Origin: Rivularia sp. MS3
GTDB taxonomy: Bacteria > Cyanobacteriota > Cyanobacteriia > Cyanobacteriales > Nostocaceae
Length of the DNA stretch: 50,871 nt
Reading direction: 5' to 3'
NCBI GenBank assembly: GCA_019192545.1
Contig: JAHCMI010000070.1
Coordinates: forward strand, 1 to 50,871
Of this stretch, positions 1,929 to 41,582 are shown in pieces. The notes below the pieces were generated by a model that saw only the letters and a program-made list of their open reading frames with translations, was not told the DNA's origin and searched no databases. The position numbers and the translations under genes are program-made. Every line of letters starts with the position of its first letter. The stretch's first letter is position 1.

Positions 1929-2074
1929 AATTTTTTAAATTGGGATTGTAAGAACGCAGAACGTTAATCGTCAATTTTTTAAATTGGGATTATAAGAACG
2001 CAGAACGTTAATCGTCAATTTTTTAAATTGGGATTGTAAGAACGGTTCCCGTTAATCGTCACCCGTTAATCGTC
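1929..2074. repeat. Three tandem 44-bp repeats at the 3' end of the primase gene
   Basis: Near-identical units run 1929-1972, 1973-2016 and 2017-2060, followed by a partial copy at 2061-2074. Each unit has an A/T block around AATTTTTTAAATTGGG and ends in GTTAATCGTC. Read on the minus strand that end is GACGATTAAC, which is also the last two Asp codons plus the stop of the primase gene. The array thus carries serial copies of the gene's own 3' end. Units differ at single bases, and the third also in its CAGAAC/GTTCCC segment, as expected of slippage followed by drift; an iteron role is also possible. Confidence 0.85.
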
Positions 2075-5000
2075 AATTTCTTCCAGGTACTCCTCGGAGT
2101 TGCAGTAATAGTTAGTTCCAATTTCAAATATGTCCAACTGTTCGGTAACTTCAGTTTCGGTTTCTGGTTGAATTGCTTGATGTTGATTTAACTGGTGAGC
2201 TTGATAACAGATTGGTTGACCGTTCCCCCGCGTCGCGTTTGCAGGTCTAACCCAGTAATTTTTACCGTCAATTGTTCCAACAATGCATTCACGAGCTTGA
2301 TACTTCCCAGAAGTCGGAAATACGGTGTCACCTGATTTTATTGACAATCGCACCCCCGTTGTTGACACCTGCACCCCCTTAGCACCCTCACTTGGCACCC
2401 CAGAAAACCCAGTGTTAGTAGGAGTTCCACCCTCACCACCCCCAGCGGGGGGAGTTTCTACCTTTTTTTGTGTTGAATAAGTTTTATTTTTTTCAAAATT
2501 ATTTTTTTTATTTTCTTTTTTTTCTGATGCAATGTTGTTTATTGGGGGTGGTGGGGGTGCGGTGCCTGCTGTATAAGGATTATCGGGGGTGCTAGTTGGG
2601 GGTGCGTTGGGGGTGCTATTCTCCGCGTTGGGGGTGCGATTGTCATTAGCTGGAATACTATTCTCATTAGTAGGGGTGCGATTGTCATTAACTTCAATGC
2701 TATTCTCATTAATTGGAGGATAATTGTCATTAATGTCGGGTTTTAAAAATTTAATTCCCTTCAATGCTGTAACTTGTTTTTTAACCCCGTGAATTGGATG
2801 TGGTGTTTTGACTTTCTTCGCATTGGGGAAGATTTGGAGGAGTCTATCGCAAACCTGGCTTGAAGCTTTGACATTTTTATCGCTTGGTCGGGTTTGTTCT
2901 ACCCACTCCCTCTTCCCATTTTCAGCAATGGTTAATGTACCTTGGTCTTTGTACCAATGCTCCAAATAATCCCACAACTCCGAGGCTGTAACAGTGCTTT
3001 CGGAATCTTCCACCAAATTAACGTCCTCAATAAATTGGAATAAGTGGTTGTTCCGCTTCTGCATATCGGCGAAAGCTTCTTCGGTGCAGCCGTAATCAAT
3101 CCCAAATTCACATAAATCCTTCAATGCCTGTAACAACTTGTTGAGGAATGCGGGTGCTACTTCGTTGCGAATAAATTCGGAGTCGTAAGCAAAACGCGGG
3201 TCGGCTAACATTTCGTGAGGGTTATTGGGGTCTGGTGTCTTTTTAAAGGTCTTGCGGAACTGAATAACACCAATTCTGTCAACTATCGCCTGCATAGTCC
3301 CTTGCAGTGCGGGAACTTCATTTACATTAAATAACCCGGTTGCTGTGGGTGTAAATTCTATGTGGTCTTTACCTTTTCGTTCTGCGTGTAACTTGTTGCC
3401 AGTTACAAACAATTTCAAAGCTTGCAATTTATCAATGCGGGAGGTTTGGGGATTTTCAGAAGCCCAATTAATCCGACTGCCCCGCAATGCGGATAAGGAG
3501 AATTTTCTCCCGTCGTCATAACTTTGGAAATCCGCGAGAGAGCAACTTGTCATTCCCTCGTGTCCCCAAATGGTGCTGACAACTTCACGTAATGCGTCTT
3601 TACCATTACTTCCCAATCCACTGAGCAATAAAGCTTTTACCTCCCGTCCTCGTATCCTGCGAACGGTTGGAAGGTCAATTGATGCAGCTATGTTGCGGAG
3701 AAAAACTTGTTGCTGTGCTGGATCTAAGCATTTTAATAAGCGTTCGCACTGTGTTGGTTCAGCTTCTGGGTTGTATTCTACCAATGGCGGGTAGGTGTAG
3801 TATTGCTCCGGGCTGTGGTCAACTAGTTGGAACTCCGGGGTGTTTCCCTCCCAAATAATCTTTAATATCCCATTAGTGCAGTTAATTCCCGGTGGGTTAA
3901 TTTTGTCTTTGGAAATTGTTACCAAGTTTTTTTGGAGTTTAATAAGTTCCGCAGCGGTGCGGGTATTAGCGAATGGGTAAGTTATATTCCCGTGTTTATT
4001 AATCAATGAGTAGTTGTAGCAGTAGGTTTGCACGGGACTTATCAAATACTCATCCGGTACTTTCACATAATAATTGTCACGGTATTCGTACAATATATTA
4101 TCTATACAGATCCAAGCATTTTCTCCGAACAAGAAGTTAATAGCACTGCGAATGAAAAGCTCCTTTTCTGCAAGTGTTAATCTTAATTTGCCATTTACTT
4201 TAATCTTATTTACCGCTGCGTGTATTTCTTCTTCCAATCTCCTAATAAATTCTGGTACTTCCATGCTTTGTAATATCTCCTCAATGTCCCCTTCCACTTC
4301 AAATGAAGTTGAAGGAATTACTATGCATGGTAGACCAACTTCAGCACAAGCTTTTTCAAACTTCTCCCCCTTCTTCTTCCCGGTTTCGTCTCCATCGGTA
4401 ATAAACACTTGAACGCATTGGGGCGAAGCTTCCGCAATCGGCTTCAATCCTTCGGCTATGCAGCGTACACTCCAATTACTACCTTGCAATGTGGCTGATA
4501 AAATCCCTTCTGCTCTCGCAATTTCAACACATTTTTCTCCCTCTCCCCATAGCAATGCGGGTACTTCCACATCATTTATATGAGCCAAAACTTCATCAAT
4601 TCGGTACGGCTTCCAAGGGCTTGAGCCTTTGTTGGATTCAATCCCACCATCTGCGTTTTTGTGGAATTGGCGAAATGTTTTTGCGTAACCCTTGGGTTTG
4701 GTTGCGTCTGCCCATTGATACCGAATTACCCATTGGTCGTCGGAGTAATGATAAATGGTCTGCTCAACTTCTCCTACTGCCCCTCTTGGTCGGTTACTCG
4801 TCAAAGGTTTCGATTTCGGAATATCACCCAATGAAGAAGAAACCAATAACTTAGCCCCCTCCGGAATGGGAACGGGCTTAAATGTTTTGGCTTTTGGAAT
4901 TGGTTTTCGGGAGCCGGTGCGGGTAGATTTTTCTTTTAATGGTGCAACGGCATTCCGGATATCAGCGACTTCGCAACCGTTCCAACATTGATATGCTCCG

Positions 5001-5149
5001 GTATCTTTGTTAATGGTTAAATTATTCCCTTCACAGACGGGGCAGTAATATCTGTCTTTCTGATCCGTTGGGGTTAACTTTTCAATGTGGTTGCGGATAT
5101 CAAAGCTTTGTGAGTCGCAGTGGTTCTGAACTACAGTAGTTGTACTCAT
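2066..5149 (-). CDS. Plasmid replication primase-helicase (TOPRIM + SF3 helicase)
   Basis: The protein has 1027 aa and the layout of phage P4/plasmid primase-helicases. A zinc-ribbon pattern has Cys36, Cys39, Cys55 and Cys59. A TOPRIM-like region spans about 198-260 (LLWGEGEKC, then FITDGDETGKKKG). The helicase domain has a P-loop at about 510-517 (GLGSNGKD; the usual Ser/Thr after Lys is Asp here). RIGVIQFRKTF near 625-635 is typical of the D5/P4 primase C-terminal part. Residues about 805-930 are low-complexity Asn/Pro/Thr with repeated (N/D)NRTP and NENS motifs, encoded by degenerate repeats near 2600-2735. A small conserved-looking tail (SGKYQARECIVGTIDGKNYWV) follows. It probably primes and unwinds plasmid DNA at initiation. 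The palindrome-rich region directly upstream is the best candidate origin. Domain calls are confident; the role as the main initiator is inferred. Confidence 0.85.
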   Translation of the reverse strand: MSTTTVVQNHCDSQSFDIRNHIEKLTPTDQKDRYYCPVCEGNNLTINKDTGAYQCWNGCEVADIRNAVAPLKEKSTRTGSRKPIPKAKTFKPVPIPEGAKLLVSSSLGDIPKSKPLTSNRPRGAVGEVEQTIYHYSDDQWVIRYQWADATKPKGYAKTFRQFHKNADGGIESNKGSSPWKPYRIDEVLAHINDVEVPALLWGEGEKCVEIARAEGILSATLQGSNWSVRCIAEGLKPIAEASPQCVQVFITDGDETGKKKGEKFEKACAEVGLPCIVIPSTSFEVEGDIEEILQSMEVPEFIRRLEEEIHAAVNKIKVNGKLRLTLAEKELFIRSAINFLFGENAWICIDNILYEYRDNYYVKVPDEYLISPVQTYCYNYSLINKHGNITYPFANTRTAAELIKLQKNLVTISKDKINPPGINCTNGILKIIWEGNTPEFQLVDHSPEQYYTYPPLVEYNPEAEPTQCERLLKCLDPAQQQVFLRNIAASIDLPTVRRIRGREVKALLLSGLGSNGKDALREVVSTIWGHEGMTSCSLADFQSYDDGRKFSLSALRGSRINWASENPQTSRIDKLQALKLFVTGNKLHAERKGKDHIEFTPTATGLFNVNEVPALQGTMQAIVDRIGVIQFRKTFKKTPDPNNPHEMLADPRFAYDSEFIRNEVAPAFLNKLLQALKDLCEFGIDYGCTEEAFADMQKRNNHLFQFIEDVNLVEDSESTVTASELWDYLEHWYKDQGTLTIAENGKREWVEQTRPSDKNVKASSQVCDRLLQIFPNAKKVKTPHPIHGVKKQVTALKGIKFLKPDINDNYPPINENSIEVNDNRTPTNENSIPANDNRTPNAENSTPNAPPTSTPDNPYTAGTAPPPPPINNIASEKKENKKNNFEKNKTYSTQKKVETPPAGGGEGGTPTNTGFSGVPSEGAKGVQVSTTGVRLSIKSGDTVFPTSGKYQARECIVGTIDGKNYWVRPANATRGNGQPICYQAHQLNQHQAIQPETETEVTEQLDIFEIGTNYYCNSEEYLEEIDD

Positions 5150-29639: not shown

Positions 29640-29705
29640 TTTAACTTGTCAGCTTGTTGAAAACCTATATTGTCAACTTCTCAACTTGTCAGCAAGTTAA
29701 TTATC
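29640..29705 (+). promoter_or_regulatory. parA operator with inverted octamer iterons
   Basis: Just before parA lie TTTAACTT (29640), GTCAGCTT (29648), GTCAACTT (29672), CTCAACTT (29680) and GTCAGCAA (29688), most in 8-bp register. Their reverse complements (AAGTTGAC, AAGTTGAG, AAGCTGAC) fit the octamer AAGTYRAC found repeatedly inside parB. AACTTGTCAGCAAGTT (29684-29699) is also a near palindrome. Binding of the RHH partner here would repress par transcription, as is known for type Ib partition systems. Confidence 0.75.
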
Positions 29706-30452
29706 ATGATTATCGCCATTGCGAATCAAAAAGGGGGAGTCGCAAAAACGACTTCTACTATCTGTCTGGGTGGTTTGTTGGCTGAATTCGGCTCCTGTCT
29801 TGCTGTGGATTTAGACCCGCAAGGAAACCTTAGTGTAGGGTTAGGTGTAGAAATCGCCGACTCACAACTTAGTACGTATGACTTAATTACGGAACAAGCA
29901 GAGGTGGGAGAGGTAATTGTATCTACCAAGTCGGGTATTTCGTTGCTTCCTGCTGATATTACCTTGGCTAAGGGAGAAACAGAGATTTTGACCCAAGTTG
30001 GTAATTTTCTGATTCTTAAAGAACAGCTTGAACCTGTCAAAAGTGAATACTTGAATATCCTTCTTGACTGTCCCCCAAGTTTAGGGCTACTTACAGTAAA
30101 CGCTTTATCTGCTGCGGATGCTGTTTTGATTCCGGTTCAGTGTCAATTTTTTGCTCTTAAGGGATTGGCTGCGCTGCTAGAAACTATTCAAAGTATTCAA
30201 AAACGTCTTAATCCTGAGTTAAAAATATTGGGAGTGCTGCCAACAATGGCAGAAAAAAATACGGTTATGACTAAGGATGTATTGAATTCATTGCGTCAAC
30301 GACTTAAAGGTATCCAGATATTTGAACCCGTTCCCAAGTCAATTAAGTTTACGGAATCTAACTTGGCTGGGGAACCAATACATACTTATGCTGATGATTC
30401 TAAGTTAATTTCGCCCTACAAGAAAATTGCTTCTTTAATAGCAGGAGAATAA
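29706..30452 (+). CDS. parA: ParA-type partition ATPase
   Basis: The protein has 248 aa starting at ATG 29706 (MIIAIANQKGGVAKTTS); an upstream TTG would add residues that merely translate the operator. The deviant Walker A is KGGVAKTT (residues 9-16), followed by the VDLDPQGN Walker A' and ILLDCPPSLG Walker B motifs. Length and the absence of an N-terminal HTH make it a small ParA of the type Ib/Soj class, which forms ATP-dependent nucleoid gradients that pull plasmid copies apart through a centromere-binding partner. The partner gene begins four bases after its stop, and the operator upstream contains the same octamer as that gene. It is the most securely identified gene in the window. Confidence 0.95.
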   Translation: MIIAIANQKGGVAKTTSTICLGGLLAEFGSCLAVDLDPQGNLSVGLGVEIADSQLSTYDLITEQAEVGEVIVSTKSGISLLPADITLAKGETEILTQVGNFLILKEQLEPVKSEYLNILLDCPPSLGLLTVNALSAADAVLIPVQCQFFALKGLAALLETIQSIQKRLNPELKILGVLPTMAEKNTVMTKDVLNSLRQRLKGIQIFEPVPKSIKFTESNLAGEPIHTYADDSKLISPYKKIASLIAGE

Positions 30453-30456
30453 TTAT

Positions 30457-31344
30457 ATGGCTAGAAAACGCGCCCGTTTGGGAGAAGATAATGACCCGTT
30501 AACCTCTACTGATAAGGTTTTGCAAGGATTTGAGGAATTGAGCAAGTCAACGTCTCAGGAAGCTGACAAGTCAGGAAGTCAGGAAGTTAAAAAAGATGTA
30601 GCTAGTAAAACTAACAAGTCAACTTCTCGACAAGTTAAAAAGTCAACAAGTCAAAATGCCGATGACGCAGTACCGAAACCGGGGCGTAAGTCAACTTCCC
30701 AACAAGCTAGCAAGTCAACAATAAGGGCTTCTAGACGTAAAAAAACATCAGCTAGCGATACGTCATCTCAAGATACACAAGAAGTCAACAAGTCAGGAAG
30801 TAAACAAGTTAGCAAGTTGACAAGCCAGCAAGGTAAAAATATAGCATCTCAAGAAGTTCCCGAAAACATAGATAAAAAGTCAACCAATCAGCAATCTGAC
30901 AAGTCAACTTCTCAACAAGACAAACAGAATGTGAGTCAGGAATCTGACCAAAATAATCAGCCACCCGACAAGCTAACAAGTCAACAAGCCTCCTCAGATA
31001 TAGATAGCAAGTCAACGTCTCAGGAAGTCAACAAGTCAACAAGTCAAAAAGATGGTCATAAAACTAGTCAGGAAGTTAAACAAAATGATAAGGAATCGGA
31101 CAAGTTAGAAAGCCAACAAGTCAACAAGTTGGTAGTTCGTAAATCAACTTTTCAGCTTTCTTCTACGATATTGGAACGGTTAGACCGCTTGCATTTAGAG
31201 CTACAGCTAGAACTGGGTAAAGTTAATGCACCTTATAAGGAAGTGATTGTAGAGGAGGCAATAGCGCGACTTTTAGAGGTAGCTGCTGAAAACCGTTCTG
31301 ATTTAGTTGAGGCTTTGCTTGAAAGGCAGAATCAAAGAAAGTGA
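30457..31344 (+). CDS. parB: Centromere-binding partner of ParA, RHH C-terminus and repeat-encoded N-terminus
   Basis: This 295-aa protein follows parA by four bases, with AGGAGAAT as ribosome site. Residues about 1-225 are low-complexity (KSTSQQ, QEVNKSTSQ, QVNKL and similar) and rich in Lys, Ser, Thr, Gln and Asn. The C-terminal part, about 228-290 (RKSTFQLSSTILERLDRLHL, then YKEVIVEEAIARLLEVA), has the strand-helix-helix of RHH proteins such as ParG/omega/ParB of type Ib systems. Typical partners have only 80-110 aa, so the long N-terminus is unusual. It is largely a translated 8-bp DNA array (see the repeat entry). The RHH dimer would bind the octamers, repress parAB through the operator and connect the plasmid to ParA. 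Low-complexity sequence may contact ParA or be neutral carrier. The symbol reflects position, not homology to ParB of type Ia. Confidence 0.8.
   Translation: MARKRARLGEDNDPLTSTDKVLQGFEELSKSTSQEADKSGSQEVKKDVASKTNKSTSRQVKKSTSQNADDAVPKPGRKSTSQQASKSTIRASRRKKTSASDTSSQDTQEVNKSGSKQVSKLTSQQGKNIASQEVPENIDKKSTNQQSDKSTSQQDKQNVSQESDQNNQPPDKLTSQQASSDIDSKSTSQEVNKSTSQKDGHKTSQEVKQNDKESDKLESQQVNKLVVRKSTFQLSSTILERLDRLHLELQLELGKVNAPYKEVIVEEAIARLLEVAAENRSDLVEALLERQNQRK
30544..31133 (+). repeat. 8-bp iteron array inside parB (putative centromere)
   Basis: Consecutive octamers with consensus close to AAGTCAAC fill long stretches: 30544-30655 and, in the same register, 30688-30719; 30782-30837; 30877-30948; 30970-30985; 31009-31080; 31102-31133. 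Example units at 30782 onward are AAGTCAAC, AAGTCAGG, AAGTAAAC, AAGTTAGC, AAGTTGAC, AAGCCAGC. I count 18 exact AAGTCA hexamers by hand. Register breaks occur only between blocks. Three octamers equal eight codons, so the protein shows an eight-residue pattern such as EVNKSTSQ, with each octamer read in a different frame. The same octamer, inverted, forms the operator before parA. Contiguous short direct repeats are the known centromere type of RHH partition proteins. Confidence 0.85.
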
Positions 31345-40609: not shown

Positions 40610-41582
40610 AATAAATTTTCAGCTTTAAATTACGGTTGTCGCATCCAATAACAGAAGAACCTATCATCAGTAGATCACAAAATTTTTTATAACCCCTACC
40701 ACATGGGCTTTTCAACAAAAGACCCAGACCCCACCGGCATCACCGATTAATAAGCGTTTCAGGCGATACGGTTACTTACCAACCTTCGCGTTCGGCGCAG
40801 CCGTGCGGCTGATCGCCTTAAATGAACGCGATTTCCCTCTGATTCAATCCAGCCTAAAACCCTTATCATTACCTTAGTTTCCGAAAGTTTGCGATCCACT
40901 TTTTGCGATCCACTTTTTGCGATCCACTTTTTGCGATCCACTGTTCCTCTTTTTTTTGAAGCTTCTTATATTCCAACCCCTTGCCCAGTTGCAAAGAAAG
41001 CGAAATTTATAATCCTCACGATTAATTCAGTGACTGCTGAAGATTTGATAGAGAAGGGTAGTGTCAGGGGGACTTCACAGCCACAGTCTTGTTATTTTTG
41101 ACGTTAATAATTTTGTAGGAATGTAGCAAATAATTCTAGTATTTCAAATACGTTTAGACGGCTAGTTAATACTTATGAGGCTTGCATTTGCGTATTTTAA
41201 GTCTATTGGTAACATCTAAATCTATTAGTAGCAACTAGTAATTAATTTGACAGCATAAACAACACTTTATTTGTAGAATTGTCAGTGTCTTCGCGCTTCC
41301 GATGAAGCGCGATAGGGTAAGCCATGCGCTACATTATTACTCTTCTAACTCATCTACATTTGAATATCAGCGTAATAGATTGAATTGTTCGTTATACTTC
41401 GGGCTTGCGCTATGTAGTATAAAACAGCCAGACTGCAACGTCGCTTGTTTAATAAAAGAATGATGCACGTTAATTATGGGCATATAGCTAAAGAATTTAC
41501 AAAAACCATACTAATAAGTTAGTTGACTACACGAGTATGTTCACTTTAAAGTTACATACTTCGTTAAGTAATATAAGTTACC
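40610..41582. other. Non-coding region with REP-like and tandem repeats
   Basis: About 970 bases between the nuclease promoter region and the 353-aa gene have no frame I support. An AGGCGAT/ATCGCCT inverted pair (40761-40767, 40812-40818) contains the inner hairpin CAGCCG-TG-CGGCTG. A 14-bp unit, TTTGCGATCCACTT, is tandemly repeated four times (40888-40942). A GCGCTT/AAGCGC hairpin lies near 41287. A short frame across the tandem repeat is a repeat artefact. Confidence 0.5.
40888..40942. repeat. Four tandem 14-bp repeats
   Basis: TTTGCGATCCACTT occurs at 40888, 40902, 40916 and 40930 (last copy shortened) with an exact 14-bp period. GCGATCC resembles a HIP1 core (GCGATCGC) with one change. 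Likely replication slippage; no function evident. Confidence 0.85.

Follow-up and report, generated by a model that had tools for sequence, protein, structure and literature searches.

An octamer array, putatively bound by ParB, lies mostly within the parB gene and encodes the linker of its own product in Rivularia sp. MS3

Why should an 8-bp repeat run through a gene that is read three bases at a time? The question is raised by the parAB locus on a 50,871-nt stretch of DNA (the window), contig C141 of the 9.19 Mb genome of the cyanobacterium Rivularia sp. MS3. Here, parA (29706..30452, + strand) encodes a 248-aa Walker-type partition ATPase without an N-terminal extension (Pfam AAA_31, 4.2e-54, the match beginning at residue 2) and lies directly upstream of a second gene, parB (30457..31344, + strand), encoding a 295-aa putative centromere-binding protein; the order of the two genes is the same in homologs wherever the fetched stretch holds both. 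ParB has three parts: a basic N-terminus, a long low-complexity linker and a conserved C-terminal domain. The answer we propose is that the parB coding sequence holds the larger part of a contiguous array of 8-bp sites (approximately AACAAGTY) for its own product. We put the probability that this is a ParB-bound iteron array, located mostly inside parB and dual-coding for the linker, at roughly three in four, its presumed centromere function included.

Units were defined as RACAAGTY and counted at 7 or 8 of 8 matches, with expectations taken from 30 dinucleotide shuffles. The dual-coding linker (30541..31137, + strand), which encodes a KSTSQQVN-like region, contains 29 units (13 of them matching at 8/8; 27 direct, 2 inverted) vs. 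about 5 expected. All the octamers singled out in an initial annotation of this DNA could be located, including those at 30782-30837, which read AAGTCAAC AAGTCAGG AAGTAAAC AAGTTAGC AAGTTGAC AAGCCAGC AAGGTAAA and fall within the second block of units (30779..30858). The first block (30541..30716) consists of nine units that all start at a position of 5 modulo 8, in agreement with the single register noted for 30544-30655 and 30688-30719. A third block (30874..30921) holds an inverted AACTTCTC unit; the fourth and fifth (30967..31069) include AACAAGTCAACAAGTC at 31030-31045, a 16-mer with no other exact match anywhere in the 9.19 Mb; and the sixth (31099..31130) stops just short of the C-terminal domain, all blocks being on the + strand. 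Period-8 arrays were found independently by Tandem Repeats Finder at 30568, 30613, 30778, 31025 and 31110. The initial annotation had placed the array in the N-terminus of ParB; most units are indeed intragenic (29 of 34), but they encode the linker, which follows an N-terminal segment of some 28 residues and precedes the C-terminal domain.

The other five units form a putative non-coding operator/centromere array (29643..29698) in the 220 bp upstream of parA, where about 1.2 would be expected. They read AACTTGTC, AGCTTGTT, AACTTCTC, AACTTGTC and AGCAAGTT and share a single 8-bp register, each starting at 3 modulo 8; the AACTTCTC unit is identical to that of the third block. The octamer of the parA operator had been described as inverted, which holds for four of the five units; the fifth is direct, and the family uses both orientations. 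No excess of octamers is seen in parA itself (3 observed, 2.7 expected). From a TTG start before the parA ATG, part of the operator (29670-29705) would be read in frame with parA as STSQLVSKL, and the same is true of one homologous locus (L029).

The periodicity does not follow from the protein sequence. When synonymous codons were permuted with the protein and codon counts kept fixed, a check proposed in the initial annotation, 0/1000 permutations reached the lag-8 identity of the linker (0.424 vs. 0.338) and 0/1000 its seven exact AACAAGTC octamers (0.87 expected). Among the 49 open reading frames of at least 100 aa in the window (100 permutations each), parB was the sole outlier, with a lag-8 z of 6.1 vs. 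2.4 for the next frame. It should be noted that the earlier argument that a protein repeat would have a 3n period is a loose one, since three octamers make 24 bp, or eight codons; the evidence lies in the 8-bp sub-period. Perfect copies of AACAAGTYAACAAGTY are confined to 31030 and 31115 in the whole 9.19 Mb. In four complete plasmids and the window, arrays are found at two places only, upstream of parA and inside parB, with unit pairs at most elsewhere; the replicon scan of Nostoc MS1 gave just a unit pair upstream of parA. STRR-type short tandem repeats of cyanobacteria are dispersed genome-wide and not tied to one locus, and a generic repeat of this type was ruled out by the confinement of arrays to parAB in these five sequences and by the genome count of AACAAGTYAACAAGTY.

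Relatives of the locus were gathered from plasmids, from named genomes (24 loci) and from two further genome sets (10/291, taking in the Rivularia genome itself and one unrelated low-complexity match, and 6/386, again taking in the genome itself); a scan of viral contigs gave no relative. We compared 34 linkers, including that of the window and several near-duplicates. Left out were loci identical to plasmid records or to another locus (L012, L015 and L017; L016 is the same as L044), L002 (a 44-aa frame), L019 (no complete second gene found), L020 (the unrelated low-complexity match), L045/L053 (a broken parB, the same sequence) and L043 (a parB with an in-frame stop). In the last of these, from Calothrix HK-06 (L043 2300-3300), the stop lies within the repeat linker and octamers are still abundant. 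None of 1000 codon permutations reached the observed lag-8 identity in 24/34 linkers, and at most 10 of 1000 did so in 30/34. Four homologs of the C-terminal domain (L041, L051, L052 and L054) have no repeat linker, and a motif search found no parA in the stretches fetched for them; two, with 69-90 bp testable, gave no lag-8 signal and are a weak control, the other two being too short.

For unit counts, the near-duplicates Tol7910, Nos106C, GracSU12, NosPA18, UniSU3 and PsSR411 were dropped, leaving 27 non-redundant systems, 23 of them with a parA start (30 dinucleotide shuffles each). CalA was also dropped from the counts, from the spacing and orientation analysis and from the third-position profile described below, and the four linker-less homologs from all of these and also from the codon-choice analysis. 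Units were strongly enriched upstream of parA (130 vs. 22 expected, 23 systems) and in linkers (372 vs. 60 expected, 27 systems), with no excess in parA (47 vs. 59.5) or the C-terminal domain (21 vs. 21.7); the 300 bp downstream held 38 vs. 24.6 expected. In 22/23 systems, 3 to 12 units lie upstream of parA (in 220 bp or fewer, with about 0.5 to 1.5 expected in each), and Anabaena 7122 has one unit in a record of only 76 bp. Intervals between units are multiples of 8 in 232/272 cases in linkers and 93/107 in operators. Linkers use almost exclusively direct units (412 direct, 37 inverted) and operators both kinds (68 and 83, respectively). The unit is near-palindromic (AAC-AA-GTT vs. AAC-TT-GTT), and a dimer with two-fold symmetry could be accommodated on it in either direction.

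Position preferences in operators and linkers are alike save for the last base, which is T in 68% of upstream units and C in 59% of linker units; at this base, T creates a stop codon in one frame out of three. T was found at the stop-making position in 0/113 cases vs. 100/240 elsewhere. We discarded this absence as evidence, since an open frame cannot show otherwise. An inverted unit need not hold a stop: repeats of AACTTGTC in tandem have no stop, although they code for hydrophobic residues and Cys. These comparisons show that one unit, with nearly the same positional preferences, forms 8-bp-spaced arrays both upstream of parA and in the parB linker.

Is the unit kept in parB for the sake of the DNA or of the peptide? 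The numbers 8 and 3 have no common factor, so that over a 24-bp cycle the third positions of the eight codons fall once on every position of the octamer; each octamer position is read at each codon position, which makes DNA and protein constraint statistically separable. We compared base profiles of 27 linkers with those of the non-coding upstream units of 23 systems, setting the register of each codon from its neighbours only. The third-position profile of linkers correlated with the operator profile at r = 0.942 (first position 0.824, second 0.900), vs. a mean of 0.486 and a maximum of 0.601 in 500 null sets in which the protein was kept and codons were redrawn at the frequencies of parA and the C-terminal domain. 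One consensus served to find both the operator units and the linker register, so that the correlation is partly built in; on the linker side, this effect is also present in the null of 0.486. For codons with a residue other than those of KSTSQQVN (788/1694), r was still 0.919, vs. a null mean of 0.636 and maximum of 0.798.

Codon choice tells the same story. In 28 genes, 1808/2697 codons were in register, and were compared to a background of parA and the C-terminal domain. In-register K was encoded by AAG in 134/135 cases (background 35%), the first S by TCA in 115/117 (14%), the second S by AGT in 131/177 (17%), T by ACA in 72/127 (22%), the second Q by CAA in 107/109 (55%) and N by AAC in 54/60 (42%). 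At cycle position 2, the codons are mostly TCA, TTA, CCA, CTA, ATA and ACA; the third base, A in 92%, is kept while residues vary. When the peptide alone was used to set the register and scoring was limited to six codons of the cycle, leaving out the first Q and V, 34/34 linkers lay above expectation (46/59 vs. 17.2 in the window), the test being thin for some linkers (3/3 in G011, 4/4 in G072 and 6/6 in Syn7502). The case that the initial annotation had named as refuting, an octapeptide kept while its octamer DNA is lost, is thus absent from all 34 linkers, a few resting on 3-6 codons. Judged from these sequences, the unit is maintained at the nucleotide level inside parB, at synonymous positions and in codons for non-consensus residues, and a DNA-level constraint on the linker is well supported.

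What kind of protein would read such an array? The parB gene product had no significant match in Pfam or NCBIfam, and scans of NCBIfam and PHROGs gave no useful match. Neither the N-terminal CTPase domain nor the helix-turn-helix (HTH) domain that an HTH/CTPase ParB (Spo0J, 'type Ia') would have was matched in Pfam or NCBIfam. With type Ib systems, defined by a small partner protein with a C-terminal ribbon-helix-helix (RHH) domain, the locus shares a ParA ATPase gene directly upstream, a short ParA without the N-terminal DNA-binding extension, and short direct and inverted repeats, a putative centromere, upstream of the operon. An AlphaFold2 model of 31132-31341 (mean predicted local distance difference test score, pLDDT, 88.8; 74 in an earlier model) has an extended segment followed by helices at residues 11-28, 36-53 and 55-69 of the stretch, in keeping with the C-terminal domain (31138..31341, + strand) as an extended RKSTFQL segment and three helices. 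An extended segment plus helices is compatible with an RHH domain, in which strand pairing takes place only on dimerization. Pfam RHH_3 was matched in 2/21 members (best E 0.0045), and an hhalign comparison to one annotated RHH protein was not significant. The RHH fold is weakly supported, and we regard it as probable. On contig C16 of the same genome, a 40-residue fragment (L002 1501-1620), 75% identical to the ParB C-terminal domain, is apparently the remnant of a second copy.

The N-terminal segment of ParB, MARKRARLGEDNDPLTSTDKVLQGFEEL (about 28 residues; 30457..30540, + strand), is kept in most homologs of the alignment, including the basic stretch KRARL, and is a candidate ParA-contact tail. 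In type Ib partner proteins, ParA is stimulated by an arginine in a flexible N-terminal tail (PMC5016525; this and the other papers are cited for the portions of their text that were available). We propose that ParB dimers would sit side by side on contiguous octamers, as omega does on heptads, and that at the upstream units ParB would repress parA-parB. The partition complex would assemble on the combined array, mostly within parB, and ParA, probably contacted by the ParB N-terminus, would then move it. The linker would act as a hydrophilic spacer, with the ParA-contact tail on one side and the DNA-binding domain on the other. Coding demands would filter the array, so that nearly only the orientation free of stops and hydrophobic residues is used, and the linker peptide may for the most part be a side effect of selection on the DNA, within the limits of what the protein tolerates. 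Both ParB binding and the centromere function of the array are inferred.

The strongest competing explanation, which we consider a real if minor contender, accepts DNA-level ParB sites and denies that those inside parB are a centromere: the intragenic units would repress or road-block parB transcription, titrate ParB or pair plasmids, and the upstream array alone would be the centromere. The 3-12 upstream units in 22/23 systems are indeed an ordinary size for such centromeres, several systems have small linkers of 4-8 units, and this class is known for upstream centromeres whose binding proteins double as repressors (PMC5016525). A mere operator would need fewer sites, however, than the linkers offer. 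Near-duplicates included (28 systems), 73% of units are in the linker, with 4 to 53 per gene, and linker units outnumber those upstream in 23/28 systems; the two sets also share spacing and base preference.

A less likely explanation is that the array is a fossil, an octamer repeat that once expanded into parB by slippage, its periodicity reflecting ancestry and no present DNA-level selection. Low-complexity repeats, linkers ranging from 81 to 942 bp and the large repeated blocks of Tolypothrix PCC 7910 would all fit slippage, as would the pooled proportion of synonymous differences (pS), which over 21 ortholog pairs was not meaningfully lower in the linker (0.262) than in the C-terminal domain (0.283) or parA (0.267). 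The K and first S codons behave differently. In a codon-conservation test on 16 ortholog pairs, some sharing a member, with parA and the C-terminal domain as control, synonymous differences were found at 1/69 conserved in-register K codons vs. 52/248 in the control (p = 1e-5), at 0/53 first S codons vs. 46/198 (p = 5e-6) and at 2/46 second Q codons vs. 30/216 (p = 0.05); K and first S together give 1 difference in 122 codons vs. 98/446. The comparison of synonymous change called for in the initial annotation thus bore out its expectation at these codons, where there is almost none, and not for the linker as a whole. With pooled pS unreduced and K and first S almost without synonymous change, the constraint acts on particular bases. 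Under slippage alone, units would also drift by lineage. Among ten diverged systems, fourfold-degenerate sites of parA differ by 0.41-0.81 (at least 0.54 in 44/45 pairs), yet they have the unit in common, and it is that of the operator; with parA so diverged, recent ancestry does not explain the common unit.

Still more doubtful is selection on the protein, in which KSTSQQVN would be favoured as a motif for interactions or as disordered linker sequence, with the octamer as its consequence. The octapeptide register does recur, and the linker pN/pS of 0.57, not 1 (0.18 in the C-terminal domain, 0.09 in parA), means that some protein-level constraint is present. The peptide does not explain codon identity, however, and this possibility was rejected on the codon permutations, codon choice, third-position profile and peptide-register test: third bases are held while residues vary, and the peptide was found with random synonymous codons in 0/34 linkers. 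The suggestion of the initial annotation that the low-complexity region is a by-product of DNA selection is in line with these codon tests, with a linker protein that is relaxed, not free.

A second system separates peptide from DNA. On a plasmid of Candidatus Chlorohelix allophototropha (Chloroflexota; L070), parA is followed by a gene for a 147-aa protein whose C-terminal part is 25% identical to the C-terminal domain of the window ParB; a tblastn search with this second gene in plasmids returned only itself. Its unit, TTCWWGAA, forms an 8-bp array upstream of parA (2102-2181) and recurs in the second-gene linker (3382-3437) and at the 3' end of the gene (3644-3723), where the array crosses the stop codon into non-coding DNA. 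Relative to base shuffles, there were 7 units upstream (2.1 expected) and 15 in the second gene (2.4 expected), but also 8 in parA (3.8 expected); the flanks held 7 and 8 (7.4 and 6.4 expected, respectively). The second gene holds 12 chained units vs. 3.3 under codon permutation (0/2000), a p-value that is optimistic because the motif was defined after inspecting the locus. The two systems share an architecture but neither octamer nor peptide, an argument for the DNA as the target of selection.

Equally improbable are replication iterons bound by an initiator, like origins lying inside initiator genes, since the gene comes after parA, non-coding copies lie just upstream of parA, no initiator domain was found in the window ParB or in 9/10 other proteins scanned, and the window carries a separate DUF5906 protein at 2066-5149, of a family known from plasmid primases. 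One homolog (L018) matches Pfam Rep_1 below the cut-off (16.4 of 33.2 bits, E 0.0063), and iterons within an initiator gene are known from pAD1, pSK41 and others (PMC3155836).

Several observations weigh against the array as we interpret it. Besides the shared consensus behind the profile comparison, the unreduced pooled pS and the linker pN/pS of 0.57, two codons show no bias in register, the first Q (97/171, background 55%) and V (GTC in 21/79, background 24%). They end where operators tolerate A/G and C/T, and this tolerance, noticed post hoc, fits the weakly held codons. Synonymous change was not significantly reduced at T (21/63) or the second S (20/91), nor at V (7/33) and N (2/23), and at the first Q it was above control (21/83 vs. 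30/216). The lag-8 excess is modest in 4/34 linkers (Symploc 65, G072 49, Syn970 30 and ProchMO167 18 of 1000 permutations), linker units are fewer than those upstream in 5/28 systems, and co-variation of operator and linker variants across lineages is weak, with one of six tests giving p = 0.049. Neither AlphaFold2 model had a Foldseek match in the PDB at E < 0.001. Finally, the ParA proteins closest to this one outside the family, at 59-60% identity, have Spo0J-type ParB partners.

How does this arrangement compare to known systems? The omega protein of pSM19035 is short and without a repeat-encoded linker, unlike ParB here; the pCXC100 repeat has a period of 9 bp; and the RepB-RepC (PrgP-PrgO) systems of pAD1/pCF10 combine 8-bp iterons with a ParA-like protein, as here, in iteron clusters that, unlike here, are flanking and non-coding. 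The delta/omega system of pSM19035 (inc18) likewise has a small ParA and a small DNA-binding partner, and its parS consists of 7-10 contiguous heptads in both orientations, overlapping promoters, much as the octamers are contiguous and two-way (PMC4498918, PMC5016525); the period is 7, not 8, and the arrays described are in promoter regions. The parS of pCXC100 has a type Ib layout with direct repeats only, which also occur here, but is among the systems with a centromere upstream of the operon (PMC5016525), where type Ib centromeres are placed (PMC5016525). Iterons upstream of parAB are described elsewhere as well (PMC7671480).

Centromere sites inside genes also have precedents. In Pseudomonas aeruginosa, 9/10 parS sites most likely lie within coding sequences (PMC4368675). 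Bacillus subtilis parS-359 lies within parB (spo0J), a centromere site in the gene of its own binder, as a single site for an HTH ParB with no tandem array (PMC4442127). Streptomyces SCP1 has its plasmid site parS1 within parB1; its ParB is of the HTH/CTPase type, and the available text describes no tandem octamers or repeat-encoded linker (PMC13245405). Recoding parS1 with the protein unchanged gave only partial complementation, the lost site being named as one possible cause (PMC13245405). The origins of pAD1, pSX267, pAMbeta1, pLS32, pSK1 and pSK41 have iterons in the gene of their own binding protein, for replication initiation and not partition (PMC3155836). The available portions of PMC9178275 and PMC7022226 hold nothing on intragenic centromere arrays, and no tandem centromere array inside a parB gene was found in the literature searched, subscription papers being outside its coverage. 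Single intragenic centromere sites are thus already known, and a tandem array that encodes the linker of the protein is new as far as we searched.

If the array functions as proposed, a low-complexity protein region owes its existence mainly to a binding array in its DNA. Selection at the DNA level would then shape protein sequence with unusual clarity, and the case would caution against taking such linkers for protein motifs. The linker would be a translated centromere, with changes in centromere specificity and in the linker coupled in one gene. Centromere and binder would be transferable together as a single cassette, a point of relevance to the way in which plasmids switch incompatibility group. 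A recoded or codon-optimised parB is predicted to give an intact protein and to lose much of the centromere.

Does the same happen with other ParB types? Of the other ParA relatives fetched, ten have ParB/Spo0J-type or ParB-N-domain partners, and that of Tsukamurella has no annotated ParB alongside. A lag-8 test in 5/10 of the partnered loci gave z values of -1.4 to 0.7, the other five being examined for palindromes only. On contig C130 of the Rivularia genome (L078, minus strand), a Spo0J-type parB (2347-3573) has five ADNVIR linker repeats encoded over the palindrome GGATAAYGTTATCC; across the 9.19 Mb genome, this 14-mer occurs at these five sites and once upstream of the C130 parA, nowhere else, apparently an intragenic parS array in an unrelated type of ParB. 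The parB of contig C20 (L079, 2467-3630) has four AATAACGTTATT palindromes, with none upstream of its parA; the genome has 11 such sites, on C20, C35, C69, C130 and C155. Halotia, Nostoc C052 and Geminocystis have one GAACAACGTTGTYC each in parB, with a similar palindrome upstream of parA in Geminocystis only. More widely, AACGTT-centred palindromes encode NNVI, NNVV or HNVM in several cyanobacterial Spo0J-type ParBs (four copies in L079, one each in L069, L024, L025 and L077). Codon permutation gave 6/200 for the C130 palindromes and was not significant for C20 (44/200) or for C145, Geminocystis, Halotia and Nostoc C052 (100-135/200), few synonymous codons being in play. We consider it an even bet that cyanobacterial plasmids, and some of Chloroflexota, have repeatedly come to carry centromeres within the coding sequence of their own binder by way of unrelated DNA-binding folds: as tandem octamers in a probable RHH parB (the present family and, with another octamer, Chlorohelix) and as palindrome arrays in Spo0J-type parB linkers of the Rivularia genome. 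Such arrays would exceed the single intragenic parS sites of B. subtilis and SCP1.

Elsewhere in the window, a perfect 14-bp tandem array of TTTGCGATCCACTT (3.9 copies) at 40888-40942 is unrelated to the octamers.

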